From NCBI GenBank assembly GCA_009829735.1, contig CM020618.1, positions 24,289,346 to 24,353,345 on the forward strand: DNA of 64,000 nucleotides, given 5' to 3'. Numbering within the stretch: position 1 is the stretch's first letter; the number at the start of each line of letters is the position of its first letter. Positions 9,224 through 47,366 of the stretch are shown here, piece after piece. The translations under genes were made by a program, and so were the position numbers. The DNA comes from Pyropia yezoensis (lineage: Eukaryota > Rhodophyta > Bangiophyceae > Bangiales > Bangiaceae). The notes below the pieces were generated by a model. The model saw only the letters and a list, made by a program, of their open reading frames with translations, was not told the DNA's origin and searched no databases.

Positions 9224-10726
9224 CTCATGAAAACCCTGAATGTCAAGACCACTGAAACGGACTTCGCGGCAAACATGCCGATGGACGTTCCCATGTACTC
9301 GCTGAAACCATTGAACCCTTAGAGATTCCATCGGCCTTTACCGAGAACGACTACGGTTCGCCGTATGCGACCTCAGTGCGTACGACGTTATCCTCGGTAA
9401 GAAATGGCGCGATGACAAGGGCGCCAAGATCAACAACAAGAAGAACAAGATATCCTTAAAGTTCAACCACAAGAATATTTCTATCACCGCCTCCTCAAGA
9501 AACCGGAGGGCCTCAATTGCCGGCAACGACTCGCACGTGACCTCATTCAAAGGACCCCTGTATTCGCCATCTACCTGCAGTCTGAAGACCCCTCAAGCAG
9601 CTTTGACATCAACTCCATCATTATGGGAGAAGCTGAAGACAAAAATGAAGTCCAACAGATTCTCAAGGAGTACGCTGACGTCTTCCCGGCTGAGCTCCCG
9701 GACGGACTCCCTCCCGAGCGTAGTCACAAGTTTAGCATCAAGCTGACCGACGACGCTGAACCACGTCGCAGCGGTATTTACCGCCTCTCCGAGTGGGAAC
9801 TCGATGAACTCAAGACGCAACTTGCGACCCTGATTCGGAAGGGATTCATCCAGCCAAGTGCCTCACCGTGGGGCTCCTCCATTCTATTTGCGGCGAAGAA
9901 GGACGGCGGCTGGCGGATGTGCATCGACTACCGAGCATTGAACAAGGCCACCATCAAGAATGCGTATCCTCTACCACGTATCGATGACATCTTTGATCAA
10001 CTACGAAAGGCCAAGTATTTCACGAAGATTGACCTTAGCTCTGGCTACCACCAGATCCGGCTGGACCCTGACACCATCCCATTGACGGCGTTCCGGACCA
10101 AGTATGGATTCTACGAGTTTACTGTGCCACCCTTCGGACTGACGAACGCCCCCGCAGTCTTCATGAACTTGATGAACGATGTGTTCAGACCCTACCTGTA
10201 CGACTTCATCTGCGTCTGCTTAGACGACATTTTGGTCTACAGCGAAACCTACGATGATCATCTCAAGCACCTGAGAAAAACCCTGGCCAAGCTACGAGAC
10301 CACAAGCTTTACGCCAAGGCAAGTAAGTGCCAATTCGCTCGAACCTCTGTCGATTACCTCGGCCACGTCATATCTGACGCAGGCTTTTCCATGGAGGACC
10401 AGAAGGTCCAAGCCATTCGGACGTGGGCAACCCCCAAGAGCAAGAAAAACGTGCAGTCCTTCCTCGGTATGGTCAACTTCTATCGCCGATTTATCAAGGG
10501 AATGGCCGCAGTTGCTACCCCTCTTACGAGGTTGACGGGGAAGGTCGACTTTGAGTGGACGCCGGATGCCCAAAAAGCCTTCGAGCAGCTGCGGACTCTG
10601 ACAACAAGTGCACCGGTACTAAGGCCGTTTGACAAACGATATCCCATCTACGTGTCTACTGATGCCAGCGGGTATGCTATTGGCGCAGTCCTCGAACAAG
10701 ACGACGGAAAGGGACGGCGTCCAGTG
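9224..10726 (+). mobile_element. Fragment of a second Ty3/Gypsy family
   Basis: This fragment runs from a degraded protease C-terminus through RT into the start of RNase H. It is cut off abruptly by the 5' LTR of copy II. A protease-like end (FAVCDLSAYDVILGKKW, about 9357-9407) is in a different frame from the RT. Its RT is clearly different from that of copies I and II. Neither the rest of RNase H nor an integrase reappears after the retrotransposon block (20618 onward), so the 3' half was deleted or displaced. Confidence 0.88.
9491..10726 (+). pseudogene. pol: Reverse transcriptase of second Gypsy family, 3' truncated
   Basis: An open frame of about 412 codons runs from LLKKPEGLNC to GKGRRP, where the LTR of copy II interrupts it. 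Visible RT motifs are KKDGGWRMCIDYRALNKATI, YPLPRIDDIFD, FTKIDLSSGYHQIR, FGLTNAPAVFM, LGHVIS and FLGMVNFYRRFIKG. RNase H starts with YVSTDASGYAIGAVL. The catalytic box reads CLDD instead of YLDD (codon TGC for the usual TAC). That removes the conserved aromatic residue and probably impairs polymerisation. The element is inactive in its present form. Confidence 0.88.
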
Positions 10727-11191
10727 TGTGGCAGTATTGACCCCAGGGGGGGCAACACGTGCCATGCAAGGGGCGGCAGGCCACTAGCCTGATCCGTTCC
10801 TCCCCCTGCATTTGGGTCCATATTCCCTAAGTTTGGGATAGTTAGCTTAGTAGTAAATCCAACTTGGATTTGAGGGTTTTCTGCATTTATCGTCTTGAAT
10901 TTTCGTGTGGCCCGGTGGGCAGGTGCTGGGGTGGGAGATTCTGAGTGGCGAGATTCTGAGTGGACCCTGGGGGGATAAGGGGAGGGACAGCGGGGCTTGG
11001 CCCTGCGTCCCCGTCCCGACCAAGAAACTGTTGGACCACACACCATCCTCTTGTTTGTCCGTGGGGGGTTTGCCCCACAACAGGGACAGAGTGTGTGCGA
11101 CTTGCGCTTCTTCCGGTTCCCCCGACACGGGAGGCAGCCCTAGCACACCGCCCCAACTTGGGTGCCGTGTGTGCTAGTGGTTTTTGCCACA
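10727..11191 (+). repeat. LTR copy 2 (5' LTR of copy II)
   Basis: 465 bp, TGTGGCA...TGCCACA. It inserts into the RNase H region of the second Gypsy family. Diagnostic sites (CCCTAGCACACC, GTGCTAGTGG, TGCGTCCCC) match LTR copy 1, not its own partner LTR 3. Confidence 0.93.
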
Positions 11192-13957: not shown

Positions 13958-15694
13958 TTGGTGCACCCTCACCCCCGTCTTGCTCGCAAGCACCAAGTGC
14001 ATGTTGCCCTTGGCACGATGGACTCCAAAGCCGGAGTCCCGTGGAGGATACAGGTGATGAACCTGAGCTCGTCGCCCCAGTACTTCAAGTCGGGAGCCAA
14101 GTTCGGCTATATCGACCAACACGAGGGACCGGTAGAAGCGGTCACCCTCAACGCGGGCGCAAGTGACGACCCGAAGTCCGGAAAGGAGAAGCATCAAGCC
14201 AAGTCGGCCGCCTCTCCTCGGCCCCATGTGAACATGGAGAGTGTCCCCCCCAGGTTGAGGGTTCAAGTTGAACGCCTCTTGGACCAAAATCACAAGTTGT
14301 GGGATGGTCAATTGGGACTCATGAGAGCAACCCAACACCGGATCGAGTTGAAGCCCGGTGCACCCCCTATACGCCAACAACCGTATAGGGGAGGACCTCG
14401 TTCAAGGGCCCTCGTTAAGGAGCAAGTTGCTCGCATGGAGGCCCTCGATGTGATCGAGGCCAGCAACGCCGAGTGGGCGAGTCCGGTGGTTATCGTCCCC
14501 AAAGTTGATGGGACCCCCCGGTTTTGTATCGACTACCGTAAGCTCAACGAGAGCACGGTGAAGGACAGTTATCCCCTACCTAGGATGGATGACTGTCTGG
14601 ACTCTCTGGGGGAGGCAAACGTGTTCTCTACCCTGGACTGTAACTCGGGGTACTGGCAAATTCCCATTGCCCCGGAGGACAGGTATAAAACTACCTTTAC
14701 CTGTCACTGTGGTACCTACCAGTGCAAGCGCCTACCGTTTGGTCTGTGTAACGCGCCGGCAACTTTCCAGCGCGCTATGGACATGATTCTGGCCGGAGTA
14801 CGGTGGCAGATCTGTCTTGTGTACCTAGACGATATCATTGTGTTCTCCCGAAGTCCGGAGGAACACATTGGCCGTCTTGGCCAGGTGTTCAAGCTACTTG
14901 CTGACGCCGGTGTGTCACTGAAGGCGAGTAAGTGCCACCTCTTCACTCAAGAGGTGGAGTACTTGGGACATGTTGTCCGTCCGGGGCGTCTCAGTGTCAT
15001 CGAGAAAAACTTGAGGGCCATTCGTAAGGCTCAGTACCCCCGGACCCAGACCCAGATGAGGAGCTTCCTCGGGATGTGTAACGTGTACCGACGTTTCACC
15101 AAGGGCTTCGCCCAGGTGGCGAAGCCGTTGAATGAGCTAGTGAGCTCAACGCTACCGAAGAACCTGCCTCCCCCAAGTCGGGTGGAGCAGGAATCCTTTG
15201 AGACTCTTCGGGACCTTCTGCTGAACCCCCCCATCTTGGCTATTCCCAGGTTGGGAGGCCACTACATCCTGGATGTGGACGCTAGCTACGACCAACTTGG
15301 TTGTGTGTTGCTTCAGCAGCAGCCGGACAAGGAGTACTTGCCGGTGGGATACTTTAGCAAGGGGCTGAACTCGGCCGAGAAGAACTACGGAGTCACCGAG
15401 TTGGAAGGACTCGCAGTGGTGCGGGCGGTGACGTCACTTCGTCACTACCTAGAGGGTGAGAAGTTCCTCATCCGCTGTGACCACCGCGCGTTGCAGTTCA
15501 TCTTCAACACGGACTGTACGAACGCTCGTCTCAACCGGTGGAGGGTGCGACTGGCACCCTTCAACTTTGACATTGAGTACCGACCTGGCAGGCAAAATGC
15601 CCTTGCCGACGGCCTCTCTCGGGTACCTACCGAGGGGCTGGACACTAACGCAGTCGATGACGACATCCCCATCGTGGGGGTAGTCACGCGCTAG
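13958..15694 (+). CDS. pol: Reverse transcriptase-RNase H (copy II)
   Basis: 578 codons. An N-terminal linker is followed by RT with the motifs SPVVIVPKVDGTPRFCIDYR, SYPLPRMDDC, STLDCNSGYWQIP, LPFGLCNAPATFQ and YLDDIIVF. The connection follows, then RNase H (VDASYDQLGCVL, TELEGLAVV, CDHRALQFIF). All catalytic carboxylates are present. It ends at a TAG (15692-15694), after which the same frame runs into integrase without another stop for 510 codons. From 14557 onward it is identical to copy I. Confidence 0.93.
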   Translation: MVHPHPRLARKHQVHVALGTMDSKAGVPWRIQVMNLSSSPQYFKSGAKFGYIDQHEGPVEAVTLNAGASDDPKSGKEKHQAKSAASPRPHVNMESVPPRLRVQVERLLDQNHKLWDGQLGLMRATQHRIELKPGAPPIRQQPYRGGPRSRALVKEQVARMEALDVIEASNAEWASPVVIVPKVDGTPRFCIDYRKLNESTVKDSYPLPRMDDCLDSLGEANVFSTLDCNSGYWQIPIAPEDRYKTTFTCHCGTYQCKRLPFGLCNAPATFQRAMDMILAGVRWQICLVYLDDIIVFSRSPEEHIGRLGQVFKLLADAGVSLKASKCHLFTQEVEYLGHVVRPGRLSVIEKNLRAIRKAQYPRTQTQMRSFLGMCNVYRRFTKGFAQVAKPLNELVSSTLPKNLPPPSRVEQESFETLRDLLLNPPILAIPRLGGHYILDVDASYDQLGCVLLQQQPDKEYLPVGYFSKGLNSAEKNYGVTELEGLAVVRAVTSLRHYLEGEKFLIRCDHRALQFIFNTDCTNARLNRWRVRLAPFNFDIEYRPGRQNALADGLSRVPTEGLDTNAVDDDIPIVGVVTR

Positions 15695-17236
15695 GGTCAG
15701 GCGTTGAACCCCGAGGCGCCAGGGAACAAGAAGTACTTGCCCCTGTCCCTGGACGAGGTGGTGAAGGCCCAGGCCGAGGATCCCTTCTGCAAGTCGCAGA
15801 GGGATACACTGGATACAGTGGTGGAGACGCGCTTCTTTCTGGGAGACGATGGCCTCCTCATGAGGAGGGGGGTATTCCAGGGGACCGAACAACTTGTCGT
15901 CCCCGCATCCCTCAAGGACAGTATCCTTGAGAGGGAGCACAACGCTCCCACGGGTGGACACCTGGGGTCTAGTAAACTGTACCAGACCCTGAGGACCAGA
16001 TACTACCGGCCGTCCATGGTGGTGGGCACCTATAGTTGGGTGGCTGCCTGCACAAGTTGTGCACAGAACCGTCTGATGGAACGGCGGCCTAGTACGGCTA
16101 TGCTATTGTTCCCGGCCAAGGAGCCCTTCGCCGCGTTGGCGATGGACATCCTTGGGCCACTGCCAGTGACCGAGGAGGGCAACCAGTACCTCCTGGTCAT
16201 CTGTGACCGCTTCACGAAACTTACGCGAGCGATCCCACTGGCAGAGATCACGGCCATGTCGGTCGTGTCAGCCTTCCTAGATCACTGGGTTGCCGCGTAT
16301 GGCATCCCAGATAGTACACTATCGGACAATGGACCGCAATTTGCGTCTGTACTGTTTCAGGGAGTGCTGGATATGTTGGGGGTTAAGGCAAACTATGCCA
16401 CCCCCTACCACCCACAAACTAATGGGCAGGTGAAGCGCTTCAACAAAACTATTGTTAGGCAGCTGCGCCACTATGTGAGTGAGCACGTGAAGACGTGGGA
16501 CCAATACATTTCTATCCTTACTACTGCCTACAATTCGCAGGTTCACTCATCTACCGGGGAAGTACCCCTCGCTTTTGTGACCCCCCGTCGCGTGCGGTCT
16601 ATTGCCGTGCGGCGGTCGCTCCCAACTAGGGAGGGTGGTGGCAGTTCGCCTACTCCTACTGAGAGTAAGGCGGAGTTCGCTGCTAGGCTTGAAAACCTCA
16701 TCCTTAAAGTCAGGGCTGAGATGGATAAAGCACAGAAGCGCTACAAGCGTACCTTTGACAAAAAGGTGCGCAATGCTAAGCATGTCCCCGAGCAGGGTGA
16801 CTGGGTGCTGGTTCACTCACACACCCCAACTGGGGGTAAGTTGGTATTCCAGACGAAGGGGCCGTACCAGGTCCTTCGTACTGATGGGCGGCGCTTCACC
16901 ATCGAAAGTGACGATGGGGTCCGCACAGTGAACGGACAGGACGTGGTCAAAGTTGCACCACCGCCTGCAGCTGACCCAGCTTGGGCGCGTGCTTTGGAAG
17001 CGTGGCGCCTCCCCTCACTGCCTGCGGCCAAACAGGGCCCGCAGGAGTACGTGTTCGATAAGTTCATCGACCACGGATGGGATGAGGATACCAACCGCCT
17101 CATGTTGAGGGTGCGTTGGTTTGGCTACAAAGCCAAGGATGATACGTGGGAGTATGTGGAGGACCTTCCCGCTGAGAAGGTCCGGGCGTACTGTGCCCGG
17201 AATGAGATAGACCCTAACAGCCCTCTCTCAACGTGA
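15695..17236 (+). CDS. pol: Integrase with chromodomain (copy II)
   Basis: Same protein as in copy I: zinc-binding HHCC domain, catalytic core and C-terminal chromodomain. The Glu of the DDE triad is again Lys (NGQVKRFN, codon 16433-16435). No Met is needed if the frame is reached by readthrough of the TAG just upstream. Otherwise no good ATG starts this frame before the zinc-binding domain. The chromodomain contains the aromatic positions YVFDKF, WFGY and TWEY. Because the same substitution occurs in both copies, the last amplification may have depended on an integrase supplied by another element, or the copies were homogenised by conversion. Confidence 0.92.
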   Translation, partial: GQALNPEAPGNKKYLPLSLDEVVKAQAEDPFCKSQRDTLDTVVETRFFLGDDGLLMRRGVFQGTEQLVVPASLKDSILEREHNAPTGGHLGSSKLYQTLRTRYYRPSMVVGTYSWVAACTSCAQNRLMERRPSTAMLLFPAKEPFAALAMDILGPLPVTEEGNQYLLVICDRFTKLTRAIPLAEITAMSVVSAFLDHWVAAYGIPDSTLSDNGPQFASVLFQGVLDMLGVKANYATPYHPQTNGQVKRFNKTIVRQLRHYVSEHVKTWDQYISILTTAYNSQVHSSTGEVPLAFVTPRRVRSIAVRRSLPTREGGGSSPTPTESKAEFAARLENLILKVRAEMDKAQKRYKRTFDKKVRNAKHVPEQGDWVLVHSHTPTGGKLVFQTKGPYQVLRTDGRRFTIESDDGVRTVNGQDVVKVAPPPAADPAWARALEAWRLPSLPAAKQGPQEYVFDKFIDHGWDEDTNRLMLRVRWFGYKAKDDTWEYVEDLPAEKVRAYCARNEIDPNSPLST

Positions 17237-27862: not shown

Positions 27863-28338
27863 CGACGCTGACACGCGGCGGCGTCAGCGTCAGCGGCCAA
27901 ACGACTATCAGAGAGCCCAGATTAAGCCCCACATCGTCACGTATTACCCTGAACCCCAACGCCCCAGGAACGCGGAGTGCGTTGGCGTCCGGTGCATCGA
28001 ATTCGGAGGTCGTTGGCCAGGGAATGGTCCAGTTTACGCTAACGCGCAGGCCGACGACCGCCCGCAGCGATGGCTGCGATTACCGGGGCTCCGAACCCAT
28101 TTCTGACGCGTCAGCGAGTCGACAGCAGAAGGCTGTAGAATCACGTGTGTGTCACGTCGTGACAGCTCGCATTCCCATGCTCTGATTGGACACATCGCGA
28201 TCCACTTGAGCCGCGGCCGAGAGAACTTGAAGCAATTGCTTCGCGTCAGCGAGTGCCCAGGACTGGTGTGTCCTGGTCACCGCACGCCGTGGGAGCTCTG
28301 CACGGTGCGGCCGCATTCGTACACGGGCGCGTCAGCGA
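27863..28338. repeat. Dispersed GCGTCAGCG motifs
   Basis: GCGTCAGCG occurs at 27881, 28108, 28243 and 28329, with an inverted relative (CGACGCTGAC) at 27863. The copy at 28108 overlaps the palindrome TGACGCGTCA, which also occurs at 40479-40488, beyond the other side of the C-Y/A-Y pair. Confidence 0.6.
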
Positions 28339-28974
28339 CGTTCTCCGCAGCAGTCTCTTCTCCTCACCGCAACCGGTCGCAACCCGGTTCCTAAACTGTC
28401 TCGCAATACCACAGCATTATGCCAACGTGCGTACCAGGTCTGTGCCGAAAGGCGCCCTCACGCCGACGGAATGATGACGGCCCTGCAGGGCCCAGCGCCG
28501 CCGGCGTCGAACGTGGCCAATGTCGCACTCTCATTTGTGGCGCTCGGCGACAAAGCTGAGATCGGCGGTCTGCCTGGTACGGTCAGTACCGTCGCCATTG
28601 CGCACTTCGGGGCACAGCAGCTGAAGCAGATGGACCAGCCGTCGGTGGCCTTCTAGTGATTGATGGACGGTATGTTCCGTCCTCTCGTAAAGCGGCGGCA
28701 AAGGAAAAGTGCAAACCCGGCCGTGCTGGACAGTTGGGGGGGAAGGCCGAGCTGCTGCAGCACTCCTTGCTGGGATCGGACGTGCGCCACTATTTAGAGT
28801 TGTGCAAGTGACGGAGGTGGCGAGGAGGAGAGGGATGTGGGCTCAACGCAGGGCCTTTTGCAGTTGTCACGACAGCAGAAGTTCACTCTCACGTCGGTAC
28901 TCGCGAGAGGATACACGCCGTGCATCAGGTCAGAGTCACTCGTATGCAAAAACTCAAAGGAAAAGGCATCGACT

Positions 28975-31900
28975 TCATCGTGGCACCTCCCACGGATAGA
29001 AGGCATTCAAAAAGAATCTCATCGCAAGACGCTGATCTAAAGGATCCAGCTCACCGGCGGGCGCGGCGCCCACCCCTCGTCGCATATCAAGGTCCCGGAA
29101 GTCAGGGACTACGTGGGCAACCCGCCTGAAGTCCTTGACCGGAACCACTCGCAAGGAGCAGTTGACTCCACCGGGGCGTCGCAGCCATTTCAGACGAGTA
29201 CATCCGCGCGCCGCAAGTGGACAGCCAAAAACGGCACTGACGGGCTCCATCTCGCACACGACAGCGATGTCCCCGTGTGGTCTCCGCAGGAGGGCGCGTA
29301 CCTCCCCAACAAAGACGGTCCGCTTGTCCTCGCCCACTGAGTAGATGACAGCGTCCAGCCAGGGTGCCTCCCGGAAGGATCGCGACGCCCGAACGATCTG
29401 GGGCGCTCGCGTACCGCAGTCGAACGTCGCAGGAATCCGTACGAAGCCGAGTACCGGCAGAACGTAGTCGGCTTGAAGACCCAGCAAGCTTGGGAGGTTG
29501 CCAAGGCCCGGTCGCTGCGCAACTTTCGCAACTGTCTCGTGCGCCAGATGGTGGGAGGCTGCCGGCCGCTGAGCGCCGCCCTCGGTAGCTGCAGCATTGC
29601 GCGAAGCTCTACGGGCGACGGCCGCGTCACGCCGCGCACGAAGGGTGGTACTGGCGGCGCGCCCGTGCCGCCCACTAGCTGTAGCACCACCAACTCGCGC
29701 AGCTCCTGGTCCGGCTGATGCAGCAGCCCGCTTAGCGTCTGCATCCTGCTGCTCCAGCGCTTCGAGCATGGCTCGCGACCCTTGCGCCTGGCGCACAAGC
29801 TGGGCTGTGAATGACGCCGGATGCTTCGTCGTCCGCGAGTAGAAAACCTTGTCCTCCTTATGCTGCGACTCATTGGCAGCCGTGTGACCGTTACGCAGGT
29901 TTCCATGCATCTTGATGGCCTGCAGTACATTGCAGAGCAGGCGATGGAACTTGGTGCCGTTGAGCTGGCCGAGGATGGGAGTGACGTAGTCGAGGACGAA
30001 CCGCGTGGCGTGCTCGGAAATGTCCTGGGCGACGTCCAGCGTCAACGGCGGGGGGACAGAAGCACCGACTTGGCCGGCAATTCGCATGTATAGCGTCGCG
30101 TACTCAGCAATCAGAGCGGTCACCGCTTCATGCAGCGGCGTGTCACCAAATGTAGAGCGGTATGCGCCCCAGTCGTAGGTAAAGCCACGCTTGACCTTGT
30201 CAACCTCTTCGTCATCGTCCGCATCGCAGACTTGATCGTCCGCTGCCGGCTCTGGGTCATCGGCCGCGTCGGCACTGTCTTGCGTGCCGCCTACGTTCGC
30301 AGCCGGGTTGCCGCCTTGTCGCCCAAACAAGCCCGCAAAATTGTGTGGCAGGATGCAGACGCCGTCCCGTTGCTGCTTCACGGTAAAGCAAGCCTGCGTC
30401 TCATCGGACCCCACGGCGTATCTGCTCTGGGTGTGAAACATTCACGCAGTACGTCGCGGCGCAGCTCAATCAATGCGAACAAAGCAGAGTGGAAGAGAGT
30501 CAGCAGACTGGTCCCGTGGTCCCGTCGCACATGTCCCCACCCGTACATCACACAAGCGCACGTAACGACGAAGTAATCCCACGTCGGCCAGGACGTCGAC
30601 TTGCCCACTTCGTTCGACGTACCCAGGATCTGCCTTGCATGCGCGGCTGCGACGGCCCAGGTACTTGAGTCGTTCAAATGCCACGCGCTTCGTAGCTTCG
30701 AGACTTCCAGCAAGCGGCTTGTCACCGACGCACATGAATGGGAACAACTTGATAAGCCTGTGGACCAACTGACGAGTGACTCCCAAATCCAGGACCTGCA
30801 ACAGAAGAAACCAACCGATGAGCACGACGCGATCGCCACACTCGCACCGCACGTCAGCTACCTGCGACCGTCCAAGTAACACAAGAAATCCCCCCACCGC
30901 CGTGTACACAAGCAAGAGAACACAACTGACTTACGTGCAAGATATCGAATCCGACCATGCGGAACAGCAAGTGTGGAGCTGTGGATAGCCCAGCCATACA
31001 AGCCAATGCGGGGACGAAGCCATTGGAGCTATCCACAGCCTCCAGAGTGGCGTTCCTTCTTCGTCTCTTGGACGACCGCCGGCTATGCGCCGCTTCGTAC
31101 TGCCGCTCAAGAGTTGCTACAACGTCGCGCTCCTTGGCTGTTAATGCCGCGGACGACCCGGCATCCCCCACCTTGACGTCGCACATGGAGCATGGTCGCG
31201 CACACGAGCCACCCTTGAAGCACAATACTGCGCGCTCCTCAGGCTGGTCGCAGATGTACGCCAGCACGCGAGGATACGCCACCACAGAGCGCCCAGTGCG
31301 AGGGTCCTCGACGGTCACGCCCTCGTTACCAGCGACGATGGTGCTTCTCAGCACCAGGTACAGCACGCGCTGGAAAATTGCGGCGCGGCGTTGCCGAGCC
31401 CGCTCTTTCCCAGCGGGCTCTTTGAGGGTCTTCACGACGGGTACGTAAGCCACGGTGACCCACTTCGCCTCTCTCGTGACGCTATTGATGACCCTGAGTC
31501 TGACTGCGTACAGCTTGTGGGCTGATAACAAACAGGAGGCAGGCAAGTCACCGAGTAGCGATCTCCGACCGGAGCACCCTGGCGTTAGTCCGTGCGTACG
31601 TCGCTGACTGCGCTAATCACCTGGGCATCCCGCGATCGTTTTCCGTCTGAGCTATCACCTGGGCATCCCGCGGTCGTCCTCCCTCTTACCTCACAGACCC
31701 ACCCCAGACTGCGCACCAAGGTGCACCCGCGTCACCTACCTCCCGACCACGAGAGTTGGAAGCAGTCACTGAAGAAGTGAATGCCCAAAACGCAGCTCCC
31801 CGGCCCGTACTCATCCATCACAGCCTTCTCAGACAGGCGGAAGGCGTCACCATCAAGCGGCGTCTCCCGAAGCGCAGATGGTGGCGCCGGTCCCGATGCA

Positions 31901-32961
31901 CCGCTCCACAGGCGGACGTTCTGGTCGCCGCGGACCCAATCAAGAATGACGTGCAGCGCGGGAGTGAAGAACGTCTGGTAGTGCTGTCCACCCTCAGCGA
32001 GGCTGCACTTGCGCCATCCCTTGTGGTGGACAGCGGCGTCAATGTCATCCCTCACGGCAGCCTTAAATGCACCGAAGGTGGAGAACACGTCGCGCAGCTT
32101 CTGATCGTGGCCGACGTCCTTCAGTTGGCTAGGTTGCGTGCCATCCCAAACCGTTAGGAAGTCATACAGCTTCTCCAAGTCTGCCAGCGACATCCCTCCG
32201 CGACCCACGGTCAGTACAAACCGCTGCAGCGCCCGAAGTCTGACGGTATTGAACCTTCCCCCCTTCGCACGCTTTCGCTTAATGGCCAACGGCGCAGACC
32301 GCTTCCAGTCGCCGAGCTCCTCGAACATGGCCCTCAGCTTCGTCTGCAGCGTCAAGTACGCATGCGAAGGACCCTGCGCCTGGGCAGTAGCGGCGCCCGT
32401 CTGCCGGCGCCGCTTGCGAGGCCTTGAGGAAGGGGAAGGGGAAGGGGGGGGAGAAGCTACAGCCACCCGGGCCAGTTCCAACAGGCCGTCAAGCTCCGCT
32501 TGCACAGCTTCTTCAATGGTCGCCGGGTCTGCGTTTCCCGACAGCGGAGCAGCAGGGAGTGCAGCAGCAGCTGCCGGCGCAGAGGCTTCCTCGAAGCCCG
32601 AGTGGCTCCCTGCCATACCTCCATGGACGCCACCCGCATGTGATGGTCCCGGCGGGTGACTTCCTCTGTTGACGAGAGGCGGAGGGGCTGAAGACGTGAC
32701 GGCTGCATCAGCTCCCACGGGTGACCCTGCGCCCCCAGCCAATCCTTCAGCACGCATCACCATGACTCGAGCCAGGCGACGCGTCACAAGCTTGCGTCGC
32801 CGCCGCTCGTGGCCAGATACACTTCCACGCCGGGCATGTCGCCCACAAGGCACGTCCGCATGCACGGAGTCGTAGTGCCATTGTAGCCCTGCGCTGCCTC
32901 GCGCAGAGAATTCGCAGATCAGGCAATCAAGGTCCTTCCTCGTGGGAGGTACGTCGGACAT
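28975..32961 (-). CDS. Plavaka-type (CACTA-superfamily) transposase, C-Y
   Basis: Spliced gene for a DDE-type DNA transposase. Exon 1 is 32961-31740; intron 1 is 31522-31739, donor GGGAG/GTAGGT and acceptor TTATCAG, phase 1; exon 2 is 31521-30935; intron 2 is 30796-30934, CAC/GTAAGT to TTGCAG, phase 0; exon 3 starts at 30795 and runs to about 30623; intron 3 is about 30373-30622, with exact junction unsettled; exon 4 ends at 28975. The N-terminal zinc finger has C13, C16, H29 and H34. After an Ala/Pro linker come HYQTFFTPALHVILDW, FSDCFQLSWSGAHKLYAVRL (formed only by splicing), YPRVLAYICDQPEE, CARPCSMCDV, FDILHVLDLGVTRQL (catalytic-Asp motif, also splice-formed) and KFHRLLCNVLQAIKMHGNLR. These match the block order of Plavaka transposases known mainly from fungi. 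Homologue in this window: 61623-64000. Confidence 0.82.
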
Positions 32962-35399
32962 GGTGGCAACGACACAGGAGGTGGATGAGAAGAGACACAG
33001 TTACGTGAAAAAATGTGATTGGAGGGTTAGCGTCAGATCCCCATTGGAGACCCGGACCCACGTATATAAGCACGAGCGGGCGGGAGACCTCGACCCGAGC
33101 GCACGGTGGCTGCCTCACCCACACCGGCACGAACACTGCGGTCTCCCAACCCACGCTGCACACCACAGGGGGAGAGCCTCAAACGCACCACGAAAACGCG
33201 GAACGGCCACTAGGCCGCGACGATGCGCGCGCGGCGGCATAGTGAGCACTGCCGCACGATGCAAGCGAAAGCATTGCAACGCTCATCCGGTAGCAGGACT
33301 GCAATGGCAACAACACGACAACGCGGGAGACAAGCGGCACGCACGACGAGGGTCCATCCGACGCTAGGGTGACCATAACGGTTAGGACGACAAGAGCGAA
33401 ACAAGTATGAAGCACAGAGGGGCAAAAGTGGAGGACACAGAGGCCAGCGAGTCGCGCGAAATACAAGCGACAAAAACGGAAGGAGCACAAACATACACAG
33501 CGCGAGGAAGCGGCCACAAAGTGCGCGAGAAGGAGCAACAGGCGCAGGGGGGTAGCCTGTGCGTGCGCTCCCGCCGAGGGCTCCCAGCAGGTTGGCGGGA
33601 GCCAACCAAGTGGCGCAGCGTGTGCCGTGGCCCTCCGCGCGACGCTCTGATGGGCACTGTCAATCAACAGCGCGCCTTGCATGCCTCGCGCCACACAAAA
33701 CGTCCAGTGGGGTGGAAGGAGCTGCGCGCGGAGCCCGCGCCTCTCAAAACCGCCAAGAGGGCAACCCCTCCCACCGATGCATCATACCGTGCACTGACTC
33801 GAAGGACCGGCGACGTCCCGCTCCACAGGTCCCAGAAGACGGCGCCACAAGGCTGTCTCCTGTGCGTTGAGGCGCCACAGGCAGCCCCGCATCGTAGAAG
33901 CTTTGCTGGGCCCAATGACGACAAAACTCATCGCGCAAGCCGACACCAGGGGACCCACAGCAAGTGAGCCGGCGCACATCAGCGGACGCCTCAAGCAGGA
34001 GCCCCCCTGCCAGCCAATCGGTGCTCGAAGTCAGGGGTCACAGGGCACCTTGGCTTTGCGGGGTCCATCCTGCGGTCCACGCCGACCAAGGCCATCGGCG
34101 GATTCGGCGTCATTCGGCGAGAGGTGACCACGGGCACGGTTGAGACAGTGCTCGATCTGCGCGCCAAGTGGGGGCCTTGGACGCGCGCCACGCTGTCCCC
34201 GCCTGTGGTGGCCAAGCGCTGGCGTCGATCATGGGAACGTGACGTGGCCGCTCAAGATTTGAACACCAAGGAATGGCTCTGCAAGTGCACAACGTACGAG
34301 TCAAATAAAAAAAGTAGTCGTGGCAAGCCACCTATCAGCCTCGTTTTGCACCTAATCCACCGTTATTACGTGCCCTTTCAGGTGTTAAGGTACCCAGCAG
34401 CCCGCCACGGCGCGGTTAAGCGGCGTTCAGTGCCAAATACGTGGAAGTATTTTTTTTCGGCATGCCAACTTCTGCCCAGCCTCACTCTGCGCGCGCTTTC
34501 CTTTGCCTCGAGATCCATTCTGGAGTGCGCAGTGGGGACCGAGCGCGCCTTTGCCCAGTGCATGTTGAGACGCTGTCGGCCAGTGTTTACGTATCAACGC
34601 GTCGCCGGCCGACCCCCTCACGGTCGCCAAGGAGCATGGATCTCCGCGCCTCCCGCTGTCACGCCCGAGGGTGCCGAAGTGAGACGTGGCTTTCATGGCC
34701 CATCTGAATCCGCGCGGAGACCAAGGCGCGCCGTTGGCGCTCTGTCGGCCGCGTAGAGACGCGTGGCGACTGCTCGGACGCGCGCTTCCGCTTGCTCCCG
34801 ACGATCACGCGGCGCCACCCTAGCACTATCGTACACACCAGGCGGCGCAGACCGGAGCACTCGTCGGGCGGCGTGACTACTGCCCGTGGACCTACCGCCT
34901 GGACGGGGCTCCCAGAGGTGAGCCGAGTGTCTTTGGTGGGCAGGGAGTGCGACTCGACGCAGTGCGTGCTCAGCTCGCTCGTGGTTCTCACGCGTGCAGT
35001 TTGCGTAACGGTGGGGCGTGACTTGGCGCTGGAGTTCGCTGCTAACGCCCTATTCGAACAATGGCTTTCCGCTTGGCACCGCCCGCTGGTGAACCCCCCC
35101 TTTGTCACCGTCGATCGGGGCGACGAGCAGTGTGACAGACGGCCTGCGGGCCTCTGCCGGGACGCCGTTGCACGCGGACTTGCACCTCTTTGGCCCTCCT
35201 CGCTGATCGCCGGGTATAAGAACCCGTGCGGGTGCGCGCCTTGCCGCTGGTCTCCTCGCTCCTCACCCCCCTTTCTTCCATCTATCCTTTCCGCCCTGCC
35301 TTGCTCTCCCCTCTACACTCTTTTCTGCCTGCCCGCTGTCGTCCGTGCACGTGCCGCTGTCTAGCTCTTTCTTTGTGCTACCGATCCAAGGTCGTCTTG
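32962..35399. promoter_or_regulatory. Divergent intergenic region between C-Y and A-Y
   Basis: 2,438 bp separate the two start codons. On the C side, a TATATA core (33063-33068) lies about 100 bp upstream of the transposase ATG. On the A side, GGGTATAAGAAC (TATAAG at 35214-35219) lies about 185 bp before the ATG, followed by a pyrimidine-rich leader. Open frames at 33407-33967 and 34124-34756 have no recognisable motif. The matching region of the second pair is 2,426 bp long, without obvious sequence identity by eye. Confidence 0.6.
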
Positions 35400-36041
35400 A
35401 TGGCTCCGTGCGACCACACCGCCACGCCGATGGCGTTTGACGGGGGCTCTTCGCGCCCGTCTACGCCGATGCCTGTGGGCAACCAGGGGCTGCCGGCAGG
35501 TCCGAGCTGTGGTCAAGGTCGCACGTACATCACACCGCGCCCTCACCTGCTGCCCCAGCTGAACACCATGCCCGACCCGTACGGTGTCCCCCCCCCGCCG
35601 CTCATCATGCCCGGCGTCCCCCCGGCTGCGCCGCAGCTCATGGGATCGCTGCCGTTCTCTGCGCCGGGTTATACGAGCCAGTTTGAGGCACCGTTTGACG
35701 CGGGCCTGCTCAACTCCGACCCGCCGGCGGCTCAACCCTCTGTCGGTCCGCTGGCAGCCGCAGCGGCAGGTGCGCCCGCGAAGCCGACGTACTCTGCTCG
35801 CGTCGTGGCAGCCGTGGACCGCACGCAGCTGGGAGGCCCCAGCACGGCCCTCCTGCCGCCGGCCATTGCCAACGACGGGCCCGACCCTCTTGGTGCTCTT
35901 CTGAACAATCTGCCTGCTCCCAGCGCACCGGCCCCGCCCCTGCCAGCGCCGGAACGTCCCAACACTCGCGCGTTCGTCCGGCCGCCGACGGGGGCTTCGT
36001 CTCGCGGGGCTTCATCGGTTGATGGGGCTCCCTCGATTGGC

Positions 36042-36075
<34 letters not shown>

Positions 36076-37823
36076 TGCCGATCGTCTCTGGGTCTCCGTT
36101 GCCCGGGCGCCCTCGCGTGCGCGCGCCTCGAGGGCTCCCAGCTAGCGCTTCCACTGGGCGAGGTAATTCTCGCGGCTCTGGCACGCCGGGCACGCCGGCT
36201 CGTCACTTGGCCGCCGCTCGTGGGCCCACCACTGACACGCCGATCGCCGGCGGGGCATCCCAGGCTGTGCCGGCCGCATCTATGCCGCGCGTGGCCGCTG
36301 CGAGTGTGTCCCCCAGTGGCCAGCGTGCTCCCGCGGTGGCGTCACGGGCTGTGCCATCTGCGTCTGGAGCGGGAGCAACGGCGTCGCTGTTACGCTTTGC
36401 ACCTGCCGGCTCGTCGGGCGGAGGGGCGTCTCTCTGTGCGACGCCTACCCTACAGCGCGGTGGGGCGTCGGCCAGCGGCCCTTCTACCACTGGGCGCGGG
36501 GGCGCGCACCTGGGCCAAGCCCGTGCGCAGAGCAAGAAGGGCAAGGGACCGAAGAATCCGTCCGCGCAGCCCTCGTCGGCTGCCGCTGCCGTGCCGCGGG
36601 GTATTCCCGCGATGTCGCCCACCCTGAGTGCCAACAAGCTTCATGACGGGACTCCGGTGCTGTCTGAGTCCGGTTATGCCCTGGCGCACGCTGTTTCGGT
36701 GGGACTGAGGCCCATTCGTCTCGACGTGAACGGTACGTCTGCGAGTGTCGAGGAGCTCACCGACACAGTGAACAAGTTTGGCCATCAGCTGCAGTCACAG
36801 GGGAAGGTGCTGGAGCAGGTCGCCAAGGGCATCCACTCATTGAAGGCCGATACCAGCGCTGGCCTCACTGACCTCAAGCAGAAGGTGGGGCTCGACAAAT
36901 GCGACATGGACGCCATTAAGGCGGACCTGGAGACCGCCAAGAAGAACCAGGCTGAGCTTATGCGCATTCGCAACCGCCTGCGCGCCTACTCCAAGGAAGA
37001 GACGGCGACCACCCTCCTGACGCGCCGCGTGTACCTCAACGCCGATCACTACACGGACTTGATGCACATGGCCATCGAGGACGAGCTCGAGATCAACGAA
37101 GAGGATGCGCGCATCTACGCCATGAGCCGGAAGATTTACCCAGCGCGAAGGAGCAAGACAACCTCGATGCGCGTGCGGTCCCTCCTCATGCGCAGCCGCT
37201 CTCATACGGTGCAGGCGTACAAAGAGGTCATCATCCCCGTCTACTTCGAGCACATCGGCGTCTTTACCCCCGCTCCGCGCACCAAGACCGGCAAGCGCAA
37301 GCGGCAGTCGGCTGCTGACCTCCAGGTTGTGGCGGACCTGATGGATAAGGCGACTGCGGAAGGGTGGCTGCACGAAGAGGGCTACATCGAGTCGGACCAG
37401 GGCTACCCGGCGATGGTCGAGACGGTGAAGCAGTTTATGCTGATGCTTGGCGCAGGCAAGCGCGTCGTTGCGTCCAAAACCGTTGGCGGTGGGGAGTACG
37501 TGGACTGTACGGTTGGGCACGTCTCCATCGTGAGCGCTATCGTTCGTGGCGAGCTGGAGAAAGCGGCAGGCATGAAGCCCCAGCGCCGGACCGGCCTGGC
37601 CGGTGGCATTTACACCGAGTTTGCCGCGGAGGTGCCGCGCTTGGACGACCTGTTGCCCATGCATGACCTGCCCGCCCGCGGCCTTCGCCTCGTTGACGGC
37701 GGTGACGATGACCGTGGCAAGCTGGACAAGGACGACCTTGTGGAGTCTGAAGAGCTCCTCGAGGAGGAGGCGCTCGACGTGGCCGCTTTGGAGGCCGGTC
37801 TTGTCGACGCCATGGAGGAGTAA
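35400..37823 (+). CDS. Family-A protein (transposase-associated, unrecognised), A-Y
   Basis: 807 codons from ATG at 35400 (MAPCDHTATPMAFDGG). The frame is open further upstream, but the TATA box at 35214 and the C/T-rich leader favour this start. The N-terminal 400 residues are Pro/Ala/Ser/Gly-rich and include a run of eight prolines. The middle (about 36730-37010) predicts a coiled coil (VEELTDTVNKFGHQLQSQGK, LETAKKNQAEL). The conserved C-terminal domain includes RVYLNADHYTDLMHMAIEDE, EINEEDARIYAM and VGHVSIVSAIVRGELEK, and the end is acidic. The same C-terminal domain occurs in A-X (57374-59196), also divergent from a transposase. No known family is recognised. I infer a DNA- or transposase-binding partner, comparable in role to the second proteins of plant CACTA elements. 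Confidence 0.75.
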
Positions 37824-40800
37824 GACCTCGAAGGGTTGGACGTCTTGCGCTGCTTTGAGGGCATCGGCGTCTTGGTACTCACTGTACAGTGTGCTTTGTC
37901 CTTTAGTGCGCTCGGTCCTCCTCTCCACACGCTTGTTGGGGAGGCACTGTTGTTTGCTCCATCATAGGTCCATGTTGACAACAACTGGGTAGTCTTGCTT
38001 TCATTGTCTCAATAGCAATCCTCATGTGCATTTGCTGTGTCCTGTAGGCGACATGCGACATGTGTGGCTGTGCGGTCGTGCTTTATGCACTACATTAGAT
38101 GGTGGCCGGCCGGAAGTTCGACGACAGGAGCGAAGGCAACAAGAGTGGGGTTCCGCGTAGGGAGCGGCACTGTAGCGTTCCAGTGGGTGTGATACCACGA
38201 CGCATCAGTGCAACGCCTGTGCCTGCTGGGCGTTGTCAGCTACCGTCACGGGCCTGCGCCTGTAGTGATTCCGCATGGGGCATGCTGCTGTTTTTATGAA
38301 CAACAGGCCCACCACGTTCTCCTCCCGCGCCCCTCAACCCAAATGCTGGTCCGTGTGCAGCACAAAAGTGGACATGTCGCGTGGCCTGGGAACAGTCCCC
38401 TCCCCCCGACTGTCCAAAGAAAGCCTCGTCCTATAAAAGGTTAGGCAGCCGGCGTATGCTGGACAAGAAAAGGAGCGGTGGCTGGCCATCCTGCTGGAGC
38501 CTTGCGCCGCCACCACCGCAACGACCCGACGCACCACGGCCCCCTGCCACCGGGAATGATGCACGTGGCGCAGATGTTGGCGGCGACAGCGTCGGCGCCG
38601 GCGGCAGAGCGCACGACTGCTGCGTGCAGTGAGCAGGATCCCGAGGCGCAACAGGCAGCGGCAGCTGCGCTGCGGTAGCTGCAGCCTCCACCCCCCAGGC
38701 GTGCATTGATCGCAGGCAGAACGAGTTACTCACTCAGCATGGGCACCAAACTCCAAGTCCTCACCTTGGACTTGGACAGCTGATCACAGGCCTCTGATTG
38801 GCCCACACGGCTCAGACAGACGACCATTCTTGTCAAGGCAGGGTGGCACGGCGGTGCAGCAGGCCCCAACGCGGGTGCGAAATCGCGGCCCCATCAAGGT
38901 CCATCAAAGCCTGGTGTCGTGCAGCGTTTTTGGTGCATCGCTGGCGTAACAAAACAGGCGTGCGATTTCGGGTTGGGGAGTACGTGACGATGTGGGAAAG
39001 ACACAAGAAGACGGTTGACAGCCAATGGAGAATCTCTGGGCGTCGACGGAGGGGAGTGCCACGTGGATGAAGGCTGTCGTGCAGGAAGAGCATGAGCCGT
39101 TTGCGTCAAAACTCGCCAAACGCAAGCCTGGGTCAACGTTGTTCGGCGATGACACTCGTGCAAACGGGGGACCTCCCTCTCTTCAGGAGGGGGGGGCGGG
39201 GGAGCCGGGTGCCTCGTAACGCGCCGAGGCGTCAATAGAGATCGCCCCATATCGGGGTGGCTGCTGGGAGGAGTGGGGTACAAACAGAGCATGCCTCTAC
39301 AGGAGTGGCTGCTGGGAGACGAGTGGGGCAGGGGGGGGGAAAGACGCTGAAGCGGCACGTGCTTGACGCGGCGCGGTGCGCGGTGGCATGGGCTCTAGGA
39401 CTCCACACGTGTTCCAGCCATGCTGGATCGTAGTGCGTCCGGGGTCCAATGAGCATGGGGGCACAGAAAGAGGTGCAAACAAGAGGGCAACGTGCTCGTT
39501 CTCTCCGCCACACGTCTGGTGCACGCACAGCAAAAGCAGGGTGCCGACATGGCCTGCGAAAAGGATGTATTTGACAGGATTTTTTGCGAAGGATAAGTCC
39601 AATCTGGAGCAGCAGAGACGCCCTCTAGCACGTCGTGCGGCGCCCTCTTGTCAAAAGCGGAGTGAACTGGCAACTCTCAAAGCGGCACGACCACGGTTGA
39701 ATTGAACACTGCGAGAGCGCCGGACGCAGAACTAAGCCAGGACGAGCACTCCACGACTTGGGTACCGTGCGGGGGTGTCCACAAGCGGCCCTCCAGCGCC
39801 TGTGTGGGCTGCTTCAACAAGCTGTACTGAGGTTGTGACAGCGTGTCCCCGTTCGCGACTCTCGAGAGCGGACCACGTCACTTCAATCTTTGCACGATGT
39901 GGGCCTATGTGGCCAATATTTTTGCTATGATCGAACGCGAACGTCACATTACTGTGCTCGAATGGTCCGGAGCCACGTATGAACGACAAAATGCTCGGAT
40001 GCGGTCGTGATGTCGCCACTTGTGCTAGCGAAGTGGGGTCGTTCTTCTCGACATTGGTGTTTGACCGCTTGACCAACCGTCTGAAACGCGTTCACACGAA
40101 ACGCTGAAACCGAGATGCGCCGGGACAGGTGGCCTGCTTGTAGCCCCCGTCACGGCCTCAAGTCCTTCGCTCGGGGTGACCCGATAGTCCGACGGTAGTC
40201 CACGATAGTCCAACCACTCAGGGGCGTACACGTAAGCACACGTGGCGTTCAAAAATGAACCGTTTAAGAGCGATAGTAGACGTTGGTGGCTGTGCCCTGA
40301 GTGTGCGACGAGGACCAAGGGACAGCTTCTTTATTTTTTGTCTTTTCTGTCAACACTTTTCGTTGGCTTGGACCCTCCGCTGTTGGCCGCCCATTCTTGG
40401 CAAGCACGCCCGCACGCGCCTGCACAGTGGGCGGAGCGGGGAGAGGGGGGGCGGACCGCGCGGCCGCCCCACGGCGGCTGACGCGTCATTGCCCCCAGGT
40501 CGAGGCCGGCGTCGACCGTCGTCGTCGCGCCCCTCACCGCCGCTGCCACGATGCGGCGACGCTGGAAGCCAGCGGGCCTCCATGAGCGCGACGACTGCGC
40601 TGGAGTTTGGGGGGAGCGAGCGCCGTCAGCCAGATGGCGGGCAGGGCGGTCGGGGGGGGCGGGGGGGTGAGGGCTGAAAGAATGCAAGTCGTTCTCTTGT
40701 TGCCTGGCACAGGCGTCTACTCTCCCTCAGCGCCCCAGGCGCTGCTGATATACGAGGCATATCTCCACAGACGGTGGGCTAGTCTCTGCCCGTCCTCAAC

Positions 40801-45113: not shown

Positions 45114-47366
45114 ATGCCCTGGGCCGTTGCCCTGGTGCTGTCTGCGACGACGGCGGCTGCCGCCGCGGGTGTCGCAGCGGGCACCCCCCGTCCGCCCCCC
45201 AACGATGGCTTCCCCGTTCACAGGCAGGTACCACAGCCCTCGACGCCCGACGACCTCGCCGCTGCCATCTTCCGCCGCATGGACCGGTCGGTGGACCCGT
45301 GCACCGACTTTTACGCCTACGCCTGTGGGACGGTCACGCCCGAGACGCCCACGCTGGCCACGATGGAGGCGGCATCCGCCGCGTACATTTACCCACTCCC
45401 TCTCTTCGGGGCGCCTGACACGCACCCCCGCCGGCCGCCGGTACCGCGCGTGCATGGCCGATCGGGTGCCGTCGGCGCGGGTTGGGCTGGGCCTTGCCGG
45501 CGCCAGCATCTCGCGGATCGGCAGCGCGATCACCGCGCGGGAGCTGAACGCGGCGCTGGCGGGGACGGTGGTCAATCCGCTGTTTGCGCTGAGCGTGAAC
45601 AACAACTATCGCAGCCGGCGGGTGGGCGACTCGGCGGTGGTGGCGCTGCCGGCGGGGCCCATCGCGGGCGTGACGGCCGAGGTGTTGGATGAGACGGACG
45701 AGGCGGTGGCAGGGGAGCGGGCGGTTCTGCGCGCCCAGCTGCGAGCCGCCCTGCGGCTAGCCTCAGCGGCGGGGTTGCTTGACGGGGTGCTGGCGTCGCC
45801 CGCCGACTCGTTCCCACCCGGCCGCACCGCCGTGTGGGACACGCTGGACGAGGTGGTGGCGGCGGTGTTCGGGTGGCAGGTGGTACTGGCCCGCCGGTCC
45901 GTCGGGGCGGTGCCCATTGAAGAGGTGGTGGCCCGGCGTCTGTATCGCGACGGACCAATGGTGCCTGTGGCGGGGGTGCTCGGTCACCTGCTGCCCGCGC
46001 CGCTGCCGCCGTCGGCTCACGTACTGGAGTCTGACGAGGACTACTTCGTGTGGCTGGCCGACTGGCTACGCGCCGCCGTCGCCGGGTCTGCCAACCCCAC
46101 CGGCCGCACCCAGATGGCGACGTTGCAGGCCGACGCCGCCGTCCGCCACGTGCTGCGGCTGGTCCAGCTCGGCTCCATGGGGCTGGACGCGGCGCTGATG
46201 CTGGCAGGCGTGGACCCGCCGGTGGACCCCGAGGCGCGACGGCAGGTGCTGAGCGGCCTGTGCAAGGGGGTTACTGAGGCGCTCCTCCCAGACGCCCTGT
46301 CGAGGGACTTTACGCGACGATTCTTTTCCGCCAACGACCGCCGGCGGGTGGCACGGCTATCGCGGCAGGTGCAGGCGGGAGTCTTGGACACCCTGCGGTC
46401 CACTCTGTGGCTGCACCCTCGCGCGCGACGAGAGATGATGCGCAAGATGGCGGCCGCCAGGACGTACGCGGGTGGCCCAAGGCTTCCCGACGCGTACGCC
46501 GACGTGGTCATCCCCCGGGGGCTGTCCAACAGCACCTACGCCGAGGGGCTCGTGTCGGTGGGCGGCGCGAATCGTCGCCGCCTGTGGGCAGCACTGTACC
46601 ACCCCGCCGCGGCCGACGCTTGGGGCAACCCCAACTTCCCCACATTGGCGTTCCAAGCCAACGCCGCATACACGCCCCTCCGCAACGCGCTCTACGTCAA
46701 CGCCGCCATGATTGGGTGGCCGGTCTTCCCAACGTCACCGGCACTGGCGGGGGCGCTCCCCACCGCCATTGAGTACGGCGCGCTGGGCTCCCTCATTGGC
46801 CACGAGTAAGGCCACGGGCTGGACACGCGGGACAGTCGCTTTGACGACCGCCTGGTGCTGGGCCCCGGCGGGTGGAGCCCCGCCGACCGGCAGGCGCTGG
46901 CCAACCGCTCCCGCTGCCTGGTGCGCCTGCACAACTCCTTCCCCCCGTCGGTGGACGGCACGACGGGCGCCAACATCACAACCGGCCTGGGCGCCTCCAC
47001 CCTCAACGAAAACCTGGCCGACTATATGGGCATCCGCACGGCCTACCGCGCTCTGACCGCCGCCCGCGACCGCGGTGCACCACGACGCCACAACGACCGC
47101 CGTGTCTGGTCTGGCGGCGTGGCGGCAACCAGCCCGGCGCTGGCCGCGGCGTTTACCGACGAGCAGCTCTTCTTTGTGGCGGCCGCCCAGTTTTTCTCTG
47201 TGTCCCCGGCAGCGTCGATGGTGGTGCGGCCCTCCCGCACGTACGCGTCGTTTGCCCACCGCGTGCGCGGGACCATGGGCCAGGCGCCGGCGTTTGCCGC
47301 TGCCTTCCAGTGCCTGCCGGGGGCGCCCTACCACCCGCCGCCGGCGGACCGGTGTGATGTGTACTA
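45114..47366 (+). pseudogene. M13-family (neprilysin-like) metallopeptidase, broken
   Basis: About 750 codons, the usual M13 length. The start ATG at 45114 gives a hydrophobic, signal-like N-terminus (MPWAVALVLSATTAAAAAGV), then RMDRSVDPCTDFYAYACG, the M13 N-terminal signature. Between about 45,400 and 45,430 the reading moves to the next frame, where YRACM and the rest follow. The zinc region has the substrate-binding motif ANAAYTPLRN, then IGHE, a TAA stop (46807-46809) and GHGLD: the stop occupies the third position of the HExxH zinc motif. The downstream frame retains ENLADYMG (third zinc ligand and Asp) and a C-terminus ending ADRCDVY, like the usual Cys-x-x-Trp end. It is a zinc endopeptidase of the secretory pathway by family. 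It has no introns, so it may be a retrocopy. Confidence 0.85.

Follow-up and report, generated by a model that had tools for sequence, protein, structure and literature searches.

Two-gene Plavaka-type transposons with a facing partner gene in the red alga Pyropia yezoensis

Introduction

Plavaka transposons belong to the CMCT clade, which also takes in EnSpm, Transib and RAG1, and the features of the family are a C(2)C motif, an H(3-4)H motif, a DDE triad, terminal inverted repeats (TIRs) and a target-site duplication of 2-3 bp, the termini of PlavakaB being CATCA..TGATG (PMC12730594). In En/Spm, both TnpD and TnpA are required, and TnpA-like proteins are poorly conserved (PMC2613891). Giant EnSpm elements carrying accessory genes in red algae (Bostrychia) are cited in PMC12477816, which also gives the genes of the Ectocarpus Harbinger element as tail-to-tail. 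This study concerns a stretch of 64,000 nt (the window, C1:24289346-24353345) from the red alga Pyropia (Neopyropia) yezoensis, or nori, which holds two divergent pairs of a Plavaka-type transposase gene and a partner gene, here called A (A1 in pair 1, A2 in pair 2; the pair-2 transposase is called T2).

ProtoRAG is made up of a RAG1-like and a RAG2-like gene, and the giant elements treated by Petroll et al. 2025 in Bostrychia are reportedly Plavaka. An earlier note on the window, made from its letters, had suggested that the two genes of each pair form a two-component DNA transposon. Here, element ends enclosing both genes were located, the association of A with the transposase was counted across the genome, and the divergence of the two proteins was compared. 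Gene coordinates given throughout are those of open frames, and introns are to be kept in mind when reading them.

Results

Pair 1 is a single mobile unit, bounded by TIRs and containing the transposase and the divergent A gene. Within the genome searched (107.5 Mb, 11 contigs), the window copy of pair 1 (W) has a counterpart on C3 (the stretches L018 and L020, which are one locus) that is 99.2% identical to it over 11,060 bp, aligned to window positions 27933-38992. The element was delimited as in Table 1 because the identity between W and the C3 copy stops there, breaking off on both sides at ATCG.../...CGAT, give or take one shared base; an exact 11-bp TIR (ATCGTCACGTA) stands at these ends and encloses both genes. 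The first ten bases of the transposase-side TIR are identical in L024, L025 and a locus on C2, and the first ten of the A-side TIR are common to L024, L025 and L027 (one end seen). In L024 the same ends lie 11,178 bp apart with both genes inside, its A being 79-82% identical to A1, and in L025 two ends lie 20,883 bp apart with the transposase and A between them, apparently together with nested DNA. Genome-wide, the end pattern occurs at 8 places, compared with 0 for a reversed control, and seven of the eight are ends of five loci: one each in W, the C3 copy and a C2 locus with a transposase, and two each in L024 and L025. The ends therefore span both genes in four elements (W, C3, L024 and L025), as the two-component proposal of the earlier note had it, and no exact copy of an end was found between the genes of the elements examined, the one match with a mismatch between the genes of L024 being near chance expectation. 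The eighth place (C3:10202838-10202854) has no A or transposase assigned to it.

Target-site duplication was checked in the four elements. The bases flanking ATCG..CGAT are GG/GG in the C3 copy, AC/GT in W and CC/GA in L025, giving a 2-bp match in one of three testable elements, which has a probability of about 18% for three pairs drawn at random; the AT within the ends may be the duplicated target itself. The flank of L024 is the end of another repeat (ATCCGTCTGGGG) that is present at further loci, and since this other transposon abuts the element, the L024 flanks are no test of duplication. An empty site was sought twice, with the flanks of the C3 copy and of L024 joined, and no uninterrupted version turned up. 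Just outside the pair-1 ends, CCCAC (window 27928-27932) and GTGGG (38992-38996) form an inverted repeat that is absent at the C3 copy, and the target site of pair 1 may have been a palindrome. At the A-side end of L024 (C1:25119691 onward), the other repeat, ending ATCCGTCTGGGGGG, abuts the element exactly, and near-identical ends of this type stand at C3:19333220, C1:29649995, C3:23127997 and C2:5384414.

The search for TIRs around pair 2 gave none that was convincing, just low-complexity and short matches. L015 and L016 are 99.93% identical over 6,954 bp and have one end in ..CTTACTGATGA; their second end was not found with the pattern CATCAGTAAGCYG, which matched that one end in both copies and three other places. 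L023 and L026 were considered as element copies and set aside, being probably a segmental duplication beside masked sequence.

Across the genome, A lies beside the transposase far above chance expectation and nearly always head-to-head. Four A queries (two of them, L011 and L028, themselves located by position) and three transposase queries gave 189 A loci and at least 176 transposase loci, near-identical copies such as those of the L028 family each being counted separately. A transposase lies no more than 12 kb from at least 118 of the 189 A loci, and of these arrangements 115 are head-to-head, 2 tandem and 1 tail-to-tail, whereas a random control averaged 7.2, with a highest value of 17 in 300 draws and a head-to-head mean of 1.7. 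Within 20 kb, the number is at least 134, with 132 head-to-head, and at least 129 one-to-one head-to-head pairs can be drawn. The earlier note had expected from two cases that A would keep company with the transposase, and most A loci do so at either distance. Because transposons cluster, orientation is the better control. The A1 domain (window 36840-37820, plus strand, also used for the structure searches), queried alone and with no iteration, matched 108 times, at 99 loci, and 47 of these loci are within 12 kb of one of the 114 listed PF18759 matches (random mean 2.3, highest 8 of 1,000 draws).

The 10-kb stretches upstream of 19 Plavaka loci, taken from the best 20 of the 114 listed PF18759 matches minus the window's own, were surveyed with iterated profiles seeded with A1. 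A was present on the expected side and strand at 15 of the 19, and two more have it beyond the stretch, namely L014 (at 11 kb) and L025, whose A looked unpaired in the 12-kb count though it is inside the same element ends; at L012 and L022 these profiles found no A in the right place. Copies of the L028 family with both genes (e.g., C1:33980013, C3:27285453 and C2:4533205) occur on all three large contigs with A proteins 97-98% identical, which indicates recent activity. Two other A copies of this family (C2:4607386 and C3:26957285) have no transposase within 40 kb among the matches listed. Additionally, a tandem satellite lies between the transposase and A in L011 (C1:5281292) and L014 (C1:39893318), apparently expanded in the latter.

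Similarity and substitution rates point to constraint on the A domain and to co-divergence of the two proteins. The ratio of nonsynonymous to synonymous substitution rates (dN/dS) for the A domain is 0.14 against L038 (the A of L025) and 0.15 against L024, with a synonymous rate (dS) of 0.72, and the transposase exons compared with their L024 and L025 relatives give 0.09, 0.12 (exon 2) and 0.21 (exon 1) with dS of 1.1-1.4. Ratios of this size show purifying selection on the A domain. For two A pairs at greater distance the ratio is higher, at 0.38 and 0.71. Across 11 loci, some with a partial A, the similarities of A and of the transposase are correlated (Spearman 0.50, a value reached in 6 of 5,000 permutations). 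In 54 of 55 locus pairs, similarity is lower for A than for the transposase; only the closest pair departs from this. Combined, these comparisons indicate that the pair has been kept together while both proteins diverged.

The features of the two pairs are collected in Table 1. Open frames and start codons agree with the earlier note's description of two divergent pairs whose start codons are 2,438 bp (pair 1, ATGs at 32961 and 35400) and 2,426 bp (pair 2) apart. Its assignment to the Plavaka type holds directly for pair 1, the core of which matches PF18759 at 48.6 bits (E 9e-13, cut-off 26.3); the longest frame of pair 2 reaches 22.3 bits, under the cut-off, yet T2 is homologous to the pair-1 transposase (33% identity over 205 amino acids (aa), E 4e-27). 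A1 and A2 are 24% identical over 184 aa (E 4e-4), their N-terminal halves match each other (E 0.001), and A2 was recovered at E 3.7e-10 by a profile that had left pair 2 out. Because identity is only 24% between the A proteins and 33% between the transposases, the pairs are not a recent duplication, as had also been claimed. Both cysteines of the C(2)C motif are present in 13 of 15 aligned transposases, including those of the window, with L012 and L022 one cysteine short each. Exon 1 of both window transposases has a C2H2 zinc finger by pattern, and a GT..AG intron fits the gap between exons 1 and 2 in pair 1 by eye. Since an in-frame TAA (58567-58569) lies within the coiled-coil-like part of the pair-2 A gene, this copy may be decayed or spliced there.

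Table 1. Features of the two transposase/A pairs, in window positions
Feature	Position	Strand	Basis
Whole pair-1 element, 11,059 bp	27933-38991	.	99.2% identical C3 copy; both copies diverge at these ends
TIR, transposase side, ATCGTCACGTA	27933-27943	+	Exact inverted match to 38981-38991
TIR, A side	38981-38991	-	Exact inverted match to 27933-27943
Pair-1 transposase exon 1, N-terminal C2H2 zinc finger	31735-32961	-	Open reading frame (ORF); finger CLIC...HYDSVH by pattern
Pair-1 transposase exon 2, holding the Plavaka core and its C(2)C motif; exon starts slightly inside the open frame	30857-31546	-	PF18759; 15-copy alignment
Pair-1 transposase 3' exon(s), ending FFLNAFYPW...	28975-30441	-	ORF; tblastn to pair-2 transposase C-terminus, E 2.6e-18
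Head-to-head intergenic region, 2,438 bp, presumed promoters of both genes	32962-35399	.	Lies between the two ATGs
A1, 807 aa, from ATG 35400	35400-37823	+	ORF; composition; AlphaFold2 model of C-terminal 327 aa
T2, running 996 bases past the window end	61623-64000 (ATG 61623)	+	ORF; homology to pair 1; C2H2 finger
A2 C-terminal domain	57374-58378	-	ORF; similarity to A1; profile
N-terminal and coiled-coil-like portion of A2, ending in an in-frame TAA	58567-59196	-	ORF; N-terminal match to A1

A1 is laid out as a basic Pro/Ala-rich N-terminus (isoelectric point 11.1), a coiled-coil-like stretch, a mostly helical C-terminal domain and an acidic tail, and the AlphaFold2 model of its C-terminal part shows a long helix and a helical domain. 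A motif, G[LM].L.D...R, is conserved in the C-terminal domain of most A members. A1 is 98% identical, over half aligned by BLASTP, to a hypothetical protein of P. yezoensis, and the named members from this alga carry only that annotation. In a word-limited database search, which does not imply restriction to Bangiales, the relatives of A were either proteins of P. yezoensis or sequences that are unnamed or from EukProt. The transposase is spread more widely, with five PF18759-bearing relatives of pair 2 in JGI or ENA sequences.

Elsewhere in the window, positions 1-20620 hold retroelements of the Ty3/Gypsy type whose integrase has a chromodomain (RVT_1 at 13958-15691 and 9623-10789; rve with a sub-threshold Chromo match at 15704-17233) and a direct duplication of about 5 kb whose copies are 14.55 kb apart. 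Between the two transposons, a long frame at 45127-46806 with a weak Peptidase_M13_N match (E 4.5e-7, under the curated cut-off) is possibly a host gene.

Discussion

The results describe a two-gene Plavaka transposon (Plavaka/EnSpm, CMCT clade) in which A is probably a TnpA-like transposition cofactor that is also a regulator. Beyond the unit, the partnership and the constraint reported above, what A does, including any need for it in mobility, is what we infer. In the proposed mechanism, the transposase would cut and join at the ATCGTCACGT ends, and A, expressed from the facing promoter and forming coiled-coil multimers, would join the transposase in acting at the ends or the promoter region of the element itself, much as TnpA works next to TnpD in En/Spm. 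A would thereby serve as a cofactor of transposition while also regulating the element, and its fast divergence would follow the changing cis-sites of each lineage.

Several observations weigh against a TnpA-like cofactor. The protein itself offers no recognisable DNA-binding domain or fold: the earlier note's description of A as unrecognised is borne out, as Pfam gave no match in A1 or A2 and nothing convincing in 16 family members (best E 0.031), no relative was found in the PDB, and a fold search with two A models gave no match, the confidence of these models (predicted local distance difference test score, pLDDT, 60-63) making that result weak either way. With a C2H2 finger present in the transposase, binding of the ends need not fall to A, and the finger argues that A is not the sole DNA-binding part. 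Nor do these elements show clear subterminal repeats like those of TnpA. GGTGCATCG is found some 60 bp inside each end of W and C3, and in L024 and L025 on the transposase side only; CGCGTCAGCGA has three copies close to the end of pair 1 on the transposase side and is not there in L024 or L025. A third repeat, TGTCACGTCGTGACA, stands near the transposase-side end with 2 changes in L024 and L025 and is one-sided, and all three repeats were too weak as candidate A binding sites to be taken as evidence. Between W and C3, dN/dS is 0.40-0.53 for A and 0.36-0.79 for the transposase, ratios that come from few differences and so do not establish recent constraint. Among the matches listed, A loci with no transposase number 71 of 189 at 12 kb, 55 at 20 kb and 46 at 40 kb, and 44 of 176 listed transposase loci have no head-to-head A within 20 kb; at three of these 44 (L015, L016 and L019) the profile does pick up an A, which had escaped the single queries. 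Some unpaired loci are probably nested DNA or decay, and genuine A-only copies probably exist.

A bolder form of the cofactor proposal, which we hold only tentatively, is that A represents a family of transposition proteins new to science. It would be a second subunit that red-algal Plavaka cannot do without and that is matched to each lineage; its domain for binding DNA or the transposase would have an undescribed fold, and it would have evolved independently of the TnpA, Myb/SANT and RAG2 partners. If this were so, A copies with no transposase nearby would be helpers, suppressors or domesticated regulators.

Of the alternatives, an anti-silencing or regulatory role for A is unlikely but the most serious. 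In such a role, A would shield or reactivate the element's promoters and be dispensable for cut-and-paste, comparable to the role of TET/JBP. Helpers are known in the clade, in which fungal members of Plavaka and EnSpm carry TET/JBP genes (PMC12730594). Promoters that face each other would offer such a factor an obvious target, and the zinc finger already present in the transposase fits as well. However, A has no recognisable enzymatic domain, a TET/JBP dioxygenase domain included (no Pfam match), and its pairing is widespread in the genome, beyond a few families.

More doubtful still is a structural role for A within the transposase complex, as a subunit contacting the transposase and not DNA, in the manner of RAG2 beside RAG1 in ProtoRAG. 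The CMCT clade does take in Transib and RAG1 (PMC12730594), and the co-divergence with the transposase and the long coiled-coil-like helix of the A model would suit a subunit, but neither a kelch nor a PHD match was found by Pfam in A1, A2 or the 16 members at E values up to 1.

That A is a passenger host gene with no role in the element is very improbable: giant algal transposons are described in PMC12477816 as carrying unrelated genes, yet A keeps the same place and orientation across deeply diverged lineages, is under purifying selection in its domain and co-diverges with the transposase. That clustered transposons, or profiles drifting in iterated searches, produced the association as an artefact is hardly credible, since, even granting that the loci served to train the later rounds of profiles, that near-identical copies and position-found A queries entered the counts and that a uniform random control ignores clustering, clustering alone would give mixed orientations, not 115 of 118 head-to-head, and the A1 query already placed 47 of 99 loci near PF18759 (random mean 2.3) with no iteration at all.

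The many diverged and partly near-identical two-gene Plavaka elements of a single alga form a natural series whose members differ jointly in transposase, partner and ends. This series makes the question of why transposons need partners testable and provides a handle on a family of hypothetical proteins. That a large family of elements in nori usually has two facing genes suggests that the partner is kept for a reason.

Comparison with known systems

Among two-component DNA transposons, Harbinger elements resemble the present ones in pairing a transposase with a second protein, there of the Myb/SANT type (Nuwa, PMC12730594). They belong to another superfamily, and A has no Myb/SANT match in Pfam. 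Fungal transposons that carry TET/JBP genes differ likewise, A being without a Pfam match to TET/JBP. ProtoRAG shares a transposase of the CMCT clade and a second gene inside the same TIRs, and differs in its gene order and in the kelch and PHD domains for which A has no match.

The fungal elements PlavakaA and PlavakaB are like pair 1 in the PF18759 core and the C(2)C motif, and the pair-1 termini CATCG..CGATG are similar, not identical, to the CATCA..TGATG given for PlavakaB in PMC12730594, counting an outer base that is not kept in all copies; the single end seen in L015 and L016 is ..TGATGA. The elements described here differ from the fungal ones in their red algal host and in their second, facing gene of an undescribed family. 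Giant red-algal EnSpm elements are closer in host, being of the same clade and carrying further genes (PMC12477816).

The earlier note knew of no such partner for Plavaka, and this claim stands in part. No description of A was found in the literature searched on Plavaka, EnSpm/CACTA and the transposons of Pyropia, Porphyra and Bostrychia, so far as the available text of these sources extends; accessory genes in red-algal EnSpm (PMC12477816) and TnpA in En/Spm (PMC2613891) were already known. Red-algal Plavaka/EnSpm elements with extra genes are therefore known in kind, and the constant, diverging partner A and the facing arrangement are undescribed within the excerpts and literature searched.

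The likeness to En/Spm (CACTA) consists of a related transposase clade and a second, fast-evolving protein, and the faster divergence of A than of the transposase resembles that of TnpA compared with TnpD as described in PMC2613891, A being likened to TnpA by description and not by sequence. TnpA and TnpD are spliced from one transcription unit, whereas A has a gene of its own, on the strand opposite to the transposase. Several groups of DNA transposons have gained another protein alongside the transposase, as TnpA, Myb/SANT and RAG2 illustrate.

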